From Jiangella asiatica (GTDB lineage: Bacteria > Actinomycetota > Actinomycetes > Jiangellales > Jiangellaceae), in NCBI RefSeq assembly GCF_004349065.1, contig NZ_SMKZ01000002.1, positions 124,001 to 188,000 on the forward strand: a DNA stretch of 64,000 nucleotides, in the 5' to 3' direction. The notes under the pieces were generated by a model. The model did not search any database. It saw nothing but the letters and a program-made list of their open reading frames with translations, and was not told the DNA's origin. Each line of letters starts with the position of its first letter. The first letter of the stretch is position 1. The translations under genes and the position numbers were made by a program. Shown here piece after piece: positions 16,933-32,054 of this stretch.

Positions 16933-17520
16933 CTACACCGGCTTGCGGCGCGCCCGGAACCGGGCCGCGCGGGCGCGGTTGCCGCACGACTCCTTGCACC
17001 ACTCCTGGCGCCCGTGCGCCTGGATGAAGTAGCGGACGCACCGCGGCGCCTGGCAGGAGCGCAGCTTGGGCGCGGCCGGGCCGGTCAGGAAGTCCATGCA
17101 GGCAAGCGCCACCAACCCGCGGACGACGGTGTCCGGGTCGGTGCGCGCCGTGGTGCGCACCGGCACGAGCCGGTCGTCGCGGATCTCGGCGCCGACCTCG
17201 AGGTCCAGCGCATCGACGGCGTCGTTGAGGATGCCGAGCGCGGTGGAGTCCGCCATGGTGCGCGCGGTGTCGGCGCGGCTGGGCGGTGCGGGACGCACCG
17301 ACATCGCGAAGAGCGCCCGGGCGGCTCGGCGCAGCAGGCGCATCGAGTCAGGCAGCCCTTGCGAGGAGGCGGCGGCCGGGCCCGGCCAGCGAACTCGTAC
17401 CCAGTCGACGACGGCGGCGTCCTCGGCGAAGTCGTCGGCGACGCCGCCGTGGCCGTCGTGGCGGATGGTGCTGACGAGCGCGAGCGCGGTGGCTCCGTCG
17501 TCACCGGGTGGGATACGCAC
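16933..17520 (-). CDS. CGNR zinc-finger regulator (ABATE domain)
   Basis: The 195-residue protein has a stress-induced ABATE N-terminal domain and a C-terminal CGNR zinc finger: RSCQAPRCVRYFIQ, then WCKESCGNRARAARFRARRK. Such proteins are probable DNA-binding regulators. I place the start at the GTG at 17520. An ATG at 17547 lies inside the palindromic operator, and the symmetry of the region puts the GTG exactly where the divergent gene has its own GTG. It probably binds the 17527-17562 palindrome and represses both itself and the phosphoesterase-LysE operon. Confidence 0.85.
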   Translation of the reverse strand: MRIPPGDDGATALALVSTIRHDGHGGVADDFAEDAAVVDWVRVRWPGPAAASSQGLPDSMRLLRRAARALFAMSVRPAPPSRADTARTMADSTALGILNDAVDALDLEVGAEIRDDRLVPVRTTARTDPDTVVRGLVALACMDFLTGPAAPKLRSCQAPRCVRYFIQAHGRQEWCKESCGNRARAARFRARRKPV

Positions 17521-17526
17521 GAACCT

Positions 17527-17562
17527 CAGAGTAACGGAAATCTTCATTGTTCCGTTACTCTG
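17527..17562. promoter_or_regulatory. Symmetrical divergent leaderless promoter and operator
   Basis: A perfect 13-bp inverted repeat (CAGAGTAACGGAA at 17527-17539, TTCCGTTACTCTG at 17550-17562) has a 10-bp spacer. Each arm carries a TACTCT -10 box, and on each side a GTG start codon begins exactly 6 nt beyond the arm (17520 leftward, 17569 rightward). A protein bound to the dyad would cover both -10 boxes. Confidence 0.8.
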
Positions 17563-17568
17563 CCTCTC

Positions 17569-18300
17569 GTGACCACACTCCTGCACCTCAGCGACCTGCA
17601 CCTCGACGACGACCTCGCGCGCGGGCGGCTCGATCGCGCGCTGCGAATCCTCCCGCCGAGCCGTCGGCCGGACCTCATCGTGATCACCGGTGACCTCGCG
17701 GACCACGGCCGGCGGGAGGAGTACGTGGACCTCGTCTCGGCGATGCGCGGTGACATCCCGTGGATCGTCTGCCCGGGCAACCACGACGACCCGGCCCTGA
17801 TGGCCCAGGTGCTGGGCTGGGACCAGTCCGGAGCGATGTCTCTCGACGTCGACGACGTGCGCGTCGTCGCCCTCGACGTCACCGTACCGGGTGAGGACCA
17901 CGGGCACCTGCGGCCGGAGGTGACCGACGCCGCGTTTCGTGCGGCCGAGGACGCCGAGAACGTCGTGTTAGCCCTTCACCACCCGCCGGTGCCATTGGGC
18001 CACGAGTACGCCGACAGCATCGGCCTGTCCAATCCGACTGCGCTCGGCGACCTGGTCATCGCCCTGCCGCGGACCCGGCTCGTCGTCACCGGACACGTGC
18101 ACACGGCGCTGGCCACGACGTTCGCGGGCCGGCCCGTCGTCGGCGCACCAAGCCTCGCCGCGGCACTGCGGCCCGACCCCGCGGCCCGGCCGCTGACCGA
18201 TGCCGGCTCCGCGCCGGGTGTCGCGCTCCACGAGCTCGGACCGGACGGAGTGCGCAGCTCGTTCCACTACGCGTGGGACGCGGCGACCTCCGCGGCTTGA
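17569..18300 (+). CDS. Metallophosphoesterase
   Basis: The 243-residue calcineurin-like phosphoesterase has the full set of metal ligands in order: SDLHLD (D-x-H), ITGDLADHG (GD), CPGNHDD (GNHD), ALHHPPV and TGHVHTA (GHxH). This resembles the 3',5'-cyclic nucleotide phosphodiesterase (CpdA/Rv0805-like) group, but the substrate is not determined by sequence. The GTG start lies 7 nt after a -10 box, so translation is probably leaderless. The stop overlaps the start of the LysE gene (ATGA), indicating a two-gene operon. Confidence 0.88.
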   Translation: MTTLLHLSDLHLDDDLARGRLDRALRILPPSRRPDLIVITGDLADHGRREEYVDLVSAMRGDIPWIVCPGNHDDPALMAQVLGWDQSGAMSLDVDDVRVVALDVTVPGEDHGHLRPEVTDAAFRAAEDAENVVLALHHPPVPLGHEYADSIGLSNPTALGDLVIALPRTRLVVTGHVHTALATTFAGRPVVGAPSLAAALRPDPAARPLTDAGSAPGVALHELGPDGVRSSFHYAWDAATSAA

Positions 18301-18965
18301 TGAACGCGGCTCTCATGTGGGGGTTCGGGCTCGCTCTCCTCCCGATCGTGCTCACGCCCGGAGCGAGCCTGGCGCTCGTCGCCGCCCGGGAAGCGGCCGG
18401 CGACCGGCGCGGAGCCGCATGGGTCGTCGGCGGTACCGCCCTCGGCATTGTCACGCACGCGGTCCTGGCCGGCGTCGGCCTGTCCGCCGTCGTCATGCGC
18501 TCCGCCGAGGCCTACACCGTCGTCCGGCTGGCCGGCGCGGCCTACCTCGTCGCGCTGGGTGTGCACCTTTTGCGTCGGGCGACCCGGAAGGCCGCGGGCA
18601 TCACCGACCCGACCGTGCCCGCCTCGAGCTCGGCGGAGCGCAGCCGACGTGACCTGCCCACCACCGGCCACGTGCTGACCGGTGCCTACCTGGCGAACGT
18701 GCTCAACCCCAAGGCCGCCGCGGTCTACCTGACCCTGGCGCCGCAGTTCGTGCCCGAGCGGTCGGTGGGAGTGGCGAGCATGCTGGGGCTGGGCCTGGTG
18801 CATATCATCCTGATGGCCGGGTGGCTGGCTGTCTGGGTGTGGAGCATCGCCCGCGCCCGCCGCGCCGTACCCGTCTCCCGGTTGTCGCGCTGGATGGACA
18901 CCGTGGGTGGTCTGGCTCTCGCCGTCCTCGGCGTAAAACTGCTCCTCAGCCGCCCGTCGACCTGA
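18300..18965 (+). CDS. LysE/RhtB-family amino acid exporter
   Basis: The 221-residue protein has about six membrane segments. It opens LALLPIVLTPGASLALVAAREAAGDRRGA, the LysE-type N-terminus with conserved Pro-Gly and Gly-rich loop. A later segment, LTGAYLANVLNPKAAAVYLTL, carries the NPK motif typical of the family. It exports amino acids or related compounds. It overlaps the phosphoesterase gene by 4 bp and shares its promoter. Confidence 0.88.
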   Translation: MNAALMWGFGLALLPIVLTPGASLALVAAREAAGDRRGAAWVVGGTALGIVTHAVLAGVGLSAVVMRSAEAYTVVRLAGAAYLVALGVHLLRRATRKAAGITDPTVPASSSAERSRRDLPTTGHVLTGAYLANVLNPKAAAVYLTLAPQFVPERSVGVASMLGLGLVHIILMAGWLAVWVWSIARARRAVPVSRLSRWMDTVGGLALAVLGVKLLLSRPST

Positions 18966-32009: not shown

Positions 32010-32054
32010 ATCATGTTCCCTGGCGGTCGCCGAGCGTCCGCCAGGGAACATGAT
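32010..32054 (+). terminator. rho terminator hairpin
   Basis: A perfect 17-bp stem (32010-32026 with 32038-32054, 11-nt loop) lies 15 bp after the rho stop. The following sequence is TATGGGGG, not a U-tract. Confidence 0.8.

Follow-up and report, generated by a model that had tools for sequence, protein, structure and literature searches.

The closest described counterpart of the regulator encoded here is Jann_2411 (3H0N), for which a ligand-controlled, dimeric DNA-binding regulator was proposed in the available part of the structure paper (PMC2954205). The protein from the window (the whole 64,000-nucleotide stretch of Jiangella asiatica DNA that was analysed) resembles Jann_2411 in its fold and in carrying both domains, PF07336 and PF11706. 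Neither 'operator' nor 'palindrom' appears in the main text of that paper (PMC2954205), whereas for the window we infer an operator together with its targets. DNA binding as a dimer, as proposed in the available part of the same source, is consistent with a spaced inverted repeat (PMC2954205).

CrtR of Corynebacterium glutamicum, a MarR-type protein, is likewise encoded divergently from its target with inverted repeats in the intergenic region, and its own transcript was reported to be leaderless in the available text (PMC5401885). However, CrtR belongs to another protein family, and a perfect palindrome tying both start codons is not described in that portion of the paper (PMC5401885). In the case of prpD (Rv1130) and Rv1129c of Mycobacterium tuberculosis, the regulator and its divergent target were both mapped as leaderless, although a symmetric operator is not mentioned in the accessible part of the report (PMC3898074). 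The doubly leaderless divergent arrangement itself is therefore not new. The bidirectional promoters of Warman et al. share sequence symmetry and divergent transcription with the window, but their symmetry, according to the available part of the paper, lets the polymerase engage one promoter in two orientations (PMC12825309). In contrast, the window would contain two back-to-back promoters with the start codons 49 bp apart and the -10 elements at the outer ends. Promoters of the Warman type reportedly consist of overlapping pseudo-symmetric elements; this candidate was rejected for the window, as the predicted -10 elements face outward without overlap and with 22 bp between them (17533, 17556). 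A literature search covering titles and abstract openings of non-subscription papers resulted in no operator, binding site or target for the ABATE/CGNR family.

The features of the locus, with their basis in brackets, are the following.

16933 to 17520, minus strand: ABATE/zf-CGNR regulator gene, 195 aa (PF07336 and PF11706 above cut-off; fold match 3H0N).
17518 to 17520, minus strand: GTG start of the CGNR gene, leaderless as judged by geometry (sequence, relatives).
17527 to 17539, no strand: left arm of the perfect 13-bp inverted repeat, CAGAGTAACGGAA (sequence; rarity counts).
17528 to 17533, minus strand: predicted mirror -10 element TACTCT of the CGNR gene (sequence; TAnnnT-N6-start in 18 relatives).
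17532 to 17557, no strand: conserved 26-bp core of the putative operator, TAACGG-N14-CCGTTA, half-site centres 20 bp apart (relatives).
17550 to 17562, no strand: right arm of the inverted repeat, TTCCGTTACTCTG (sequence).
17556 to 17561, plus strand: predicted -10 element TACTCT after CGT (CGN-TAnnnT) of the phosphoesterase-LysE operon (sequence; consensus in the available parts of PMC3898074 and PMC8079986).
17569 to 17571, plus strand: GTG start of the phosphoesterase gene, leaderless as judged by geometry (sequence, relatives).
17569 to 18300, plus strand: calcineurin-like metallophosphoesterase gene, 243 aa (PF00149).
18300 to 18965, plus strand: LysE-type exporter gene, 221 aa (PF01810).

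The right arm is the reverse complement of the left one at 13 of 13 positions, with a 10-bp spacer and the centre at 17544.5. TACTCT occurs once per arm, and each GTG codon lies 6 nt past its arm and 7 nt past TACTCT. The initial annotation had described this repeat, both TACTCT boxes, the GTG spacing and the symmetry about 17544.5, and all its coordinates proved to be correct.

The rarity of such repeats was determined with 60 dinucleotide shuffles of the window, in which perfect inverted repeats with arms of at least 13 bp and a spacer of up to 20 bp were counted. The shuffled windows contained 0.05 of them on average and 2 at most. The real window held three distinct ones, the palindrome described here and those starting at 32010 and 1116 (7 in the raw count, with nested rows included). 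Chance would not be expected to produce perfect inverted repeats of the palindrome's size. Across the 7.03 Mb genome, the exact 13-mer was found only in these two arms; with up to two mismatches it occurred at 20 places compared to 25 for the reversed control, so that only the exact matches are informative. The repeat at 32010-32054 (ATCATGTTCCCTGGCGG), whose arms measure 17 bp and whose loop measures 11 bp, is the longest in the list of the window's repeats, and a T run does not directly follow it. The repeat at 1116-1154 (ACTGTGGCCCCGG) is a perfect, G+C-rich 13-bp inverted repeat with a terminator-like look.

The CGNR protein scored 42.3 bits with the zf-CGNR domain PF11706 (cut-off 24) and 32.3 bits with the N-terminal ABATE domain PF07336 (cut-off 24.4). 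It carries the CGNR signature, and its four zinc cysteines 156, 161, 175 and 179 were invariant among 29 aligned sequences, the window protein included. The best AlphaFold model had a pLDDT of 89 and the other four 76–79. The top Foldseek match of the best model was 3H0N (E 2.2e-5, TM 0.57–0.60, rmsd 5.4), which was also the sole PDB fold match at E ≤ 0.001; a sequence profile search of the PDB with the same protein gave nothing at E ≤ 0.01. The start of the CGNR gene at 17520, which the symmetry had been said to fix, was borne out by the Actinophytocola relative, starting with MRMPLGEDG where the window has MRIPPGDDG. The start of the phosphoesterase is backed by homology, with the alignment beginning from residue 1 in many relatives, and its stop codon is overlapped by the LysE start codon by one base. 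A GAGG motif ends 3 nt before the CGNR GTG, too close for a good Shine-Dalgarno sequence, which makes a very short leader conceivable on this side. No GAGG-like motif was found upstream of the phosphoesterase GTG.

Close relatives were not found in the genus and family, where the best other match was at most 37% identical (12 genomes, then 22 including those 12), and none of the relatives in a second draw of 364 genomes from the class exceeded 49%. The two nearest relatives, an Actinophytocola MAG (60%) and Kribbella steppae (55%), were obtained by a contig scan. Both carry an imperfect 26-bp palindrome in the same place, TAATGG...CCGTTA and TAATGC...CCGTTA, respectively, and the CGNR gene is preceded by TACTAT-N6-ATG in the former and by TAGAGT-N6-ATG in the latter. 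The phosphoesterase side appears damaged in both of them. The Actinophytocola phosphoesterase match falls into two frames and has GCG aligned to the window's GTG, where MAG errors are possible. In K. steppae, the phosphoesterase was not detected by tblastn and the LysE match starts only at residue 24.

The conserved operator sequence around the palindrome approximates TAAYGG-N14-16-CCRTTA. A class-wide search of 393 genomes resulted in 22 further relatives, which together with the two nearest ones formed a deriving set of 24 loci. The pattern TMAYG-N16..18-CRTKA (or N8) was read from these loci and written down before more loci were fetched. Of the 343 and 345 genomes covered by two later searches, 108 and 78, respectively, contained matches; 30 loci were fetched from each search, and all 57 new ones among those 60 were counted. 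The tested region extended from -250 to +15 bp around the alignment start to the window protein instead of the annotated start; as fixed beforehand with the pattern, it ran to +10. The pattern was detected close to the CGNR match at 51 of the 57 new and 22 of the 24 deriving loci. This count tests repeatability more than independence, since the relatives are not independent samples: two families supplied the new loci and nearly all the deriving ones. The site density was 3.44 per kb in the tested region and 0.09 per kb elsewhere in the new loci, i.e. 38-fold above the background. L053, scored as a miss, aligned from residue 63 only and its true upstream region fell outside the test, while L093 and L105, as judged by reading, missed the pattern by about one base. 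Five CGNR relatives (L044, L069, L072, L079, L089) lacked the pattern, and a TATCAT/TATTAT -10 element near ATG persists in them.

With lengths of 14–55 allowed, the spacing in 81 relatives was 26 bp in 37, 27 bp in 21, 28 bp in 10 and 18 bp in 6 of them. Any other length was found in at most 3 of the 81, the background expectation being at most 1.3 per length. The half-site centres are thereby 20–22 or 12 bp apart, about two turns or one turn of the helix, which would fit a dimer bound to one face of the DNA. The arms also matched beyond the core, the outer six positions agreeing at 0.44 compared to 0.36 with swapped partners (p = 0.0005, 68 sites with the window included), a p value weakened by shared ancestry. 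The initial annotation had named, as an outcome speaking against its reading, related genomes that keep the genes and lose the palindrome. The opposite was observed, as 49 of the 51 relatives with a divergent phosphoesterase retained the site. Of 73 relatives, 26 had two hexamers that mirrored each other exactly; the half-sites were often unequal.

In the available text on M. tuberculosis, promoters are described by TANNNT, often with CGN before it, and no -35 motif was found (PMC3898074). In Streptomyces lividans, according to the accessible part of the paper, 88.7% of the spacers between the -10 element and the transcription start are 5–7 nt, and the leaderless share is 17% (PMC8079986). TAnnnT about 5–7 nt before the start codon was found on both sides of the palindrome (TACTCT-N7-GTG). 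CCGTTAnnnT fits CGN-TANNNT and, consequently, an operator and a promoter can share letters. A sigma-70 promoter with a -35 element was considered and rejected, none being found; the -10-only reading relies on the available parts of PMC3898074 and PMC8079986.

On the CGNR side, 18 of 73 site-bearing relatives combine TAnnnT within the half-site with a start codon that follows the half-site at exactly 10 nt, the distance being 11 nt in the window. This is the geometry that such putatively leaderless genes need. Eight relatives, including one of those 18, have a CGNR start 4–5 nt after the half-site. On the phosphoesterase side, leaderless geometry, taken as TAnnnT in the half-site with a start 8–12 nt on, was detected in the window and in 0 of 49 relatives having a divergent phosphoesterase and the site. 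Nine of those 49 have an in-frame start within 3–12 nt without a -10 TAnnnT in the half-site. As judged by reading, the relatives with a divergent phosphoesterase mostly appear to have the CGNR -10 element further downstream and the phosphoesterase start 12–27 or about 34–130 nt away from the half-site, with a purine-rich stretch often preceding this start. The observations on the phosphoesterase side speak for an alternative in which the operator is right and the phosphoesterase is not leaderless, its transcription starting elsewhere and the mirror start geometry being coincidental. We consider this alternative possible but unlikely. The gap between the arm and GTG is only 6 nt, and the next in-frame start upstream precedes the half-site's end by 100 nt. 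Furthermore, the Actinophytocola sequence has TATGGT followed 6 nt later by the GCG aligned to the window GTG, and the mirror geometry may thus predate the J. asiatica genome. The leaderless divergent promoter of the initial annotation therefore stands as geometry on both sides of the window palindrome and is not conserved on the phosphoesterase side, which indicates that the mirror image is a local extreme of a conserved operator and, as far as seen, not a conserved device.

The specificity of the site was studied by scanning 25 genomes, J. asiatica and 24 chosen for bearing the window's CGNR type, with the pattern TAAYGG-N13..16-CCRTTA. It matched 25 places in 21 genomes, and the reversed control matched 10 places. 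The 26–28 bp places numbered 22 in 19 genomes, and a CGNR gene adjoined 21 of these 22 (19 identified in the fetched loci with tblastn or by reading, and two known already as L071 and L094); in one of the 21 (L139/L148) the site is on the 3' side of the gene, before the neighbouring gene. The 22nd site, L143 1510-1536, adjoins a LysE gene and a degraded ORF with a phosphoesterase-like beginning, and a CGNR match is absent; a second copy of the system has probably decayed at this locus. Of the three 25-bp places, none adjoined a CGNR gene, and the stricter 26–28 bp site was absent from six of the 25 genomes. As most of the 22 sites are already within the upstream counts, the scan mainly adds the lack of sites elsewhere. 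In a phylum sample of 396 genomes, the pattern occurred in 35 and the reversed control, by eye, was at least as frequent. One of 30 loci from this sample was the window and the other 29 had no detectable CGNR, phosphoesterase or LysE relative. The pattern is thus no better than chance in this broad sample, and the site alone is uninformative outside the CGNR genomes. The conserved site, its sharp spacing and the CGNR adjacency together argue that it is very probably an autoregulatory operator of CGNR genes.

J. asiatica has 11 CGNR genes, and a site was detected at four of them: the window gene, L016/L142, L014 (short, with six-base arms only) and L013 (variant TAACC/GGTTA). The remaining seven had no convincing site in scans that were weak, with estimated starts and a motif filter skipping several genes; one scan overlooked the L014 and L016 sites. 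With the stricter pattern, two places were found in the genome, at the window gene and at the start of a second CGNR gene. At the latter (L142 1070-1096; G000:C110:3069-3095), the sequence is GCTGTAATGG-N15-CCATTACAGC with an in-frame GTG within the palindrome, and translation may pass through its own operator. In the L013 paralogue, the TAACC/GGTTA half-sites have a similar spacing and are followed by TATGAT-N6-GTG; CGNR paralogues may therefore use different half-sites in the same layout. Among the plasmid records, three matched the pattern, and the inspected one (L190, Streptomyces sp. NBC_00708) has the site and the same LysE-phosphoesterase-CGNR order as the window. At L144 1536-1563 and L148 1487-1514, an operator of this type lies between a CGNR gene and a divergent or neighbouring gene whose product resembles, by eye, a glyoxalase/VOC protein, which suggests other targets.

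Among TetR- and MarR-type proteins, divergent operators as long as the palindrome are common. The palindrome could accordingly be the operator of another regulator, e.g. of TetR type, controlling the CGNR gene and the operon, and CrtR is a MarR-type case in the available text of PMC5401885. We regard this as improbable, because the site accompanies CGNR genes: it marks two of them in J. asiatica, it adjoins them at nearly all the 26–28 bp places of the CGNR-bearing genomes, and it is also found at CGNR genes without a phosphoesterase or LysE match in the 1.5 kb flank (e.g. L054-L056, L058-L062, L113-L120). That the repeat works as RNA, as a hairpin, attenuator or bidirectional terminator, was rejected as highly improbable: although the perfect 13-bp arms could fold if transcribed, no terminator-like site was found in 17300-17800, with leaderless genes the 6-nt gap would place the repeat upstream of both transcription starts, and it is also upstream in relatives whose CGNR -10 element reads further downstream.

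The palindrome is most likely the operator of the ABATE/CGNR regulator (16933-17520), whose predicted dimer would repress its own gene and the phosphoesterase-LysE operon; conservation, spacing and attachment to CGNR genes, all at the level of sequence, support the divergent operator/promoter that the initial annotation had assigned to this regulator. In the proposed mechanism, the CGNR dimer would read the two CCGTTA half-sites with their centres about two helical turns apart, and each half-site would supply the CGN-TA of a TAnnnT -10 element. The bound dimer would cover both -10 elements, repressing the CGNR gene and the divergent operon, and its release, perhaps through a ligand of the ABATE domain, would switch the export on. 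Both mRNAs would begin at or next to the GTG codons and have no leader. The leaderless 5' ends of both mRNAs and the equal repression of both genes are predictions.

For the family as a whole, the evidence leans towards actinomycete ABATE/CGNR regulators sharing inverted CRTTA half-sites with centres 12 or 20–22 bp apart, able to double as the CGN-TAnnnT -10 element of their own promoter, with the start codon fixed 10 nt away in many genes without a phosphoesterase. The window would be the extreme form, in which one perfect palindrome builds both promoters and sets both starts, and this case suggests that the same letters can serve as an operator half-site and as an actinobacterial -10 element. 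If true, the shared half-site architecture would be the first operator code for the ABATE/CGNR family. The operator would associate a metallophosphoesterase and a LysE exporter with the family and, being conserved on the regulator's own promoter, would make the binding, ligand and regulon directly testable.
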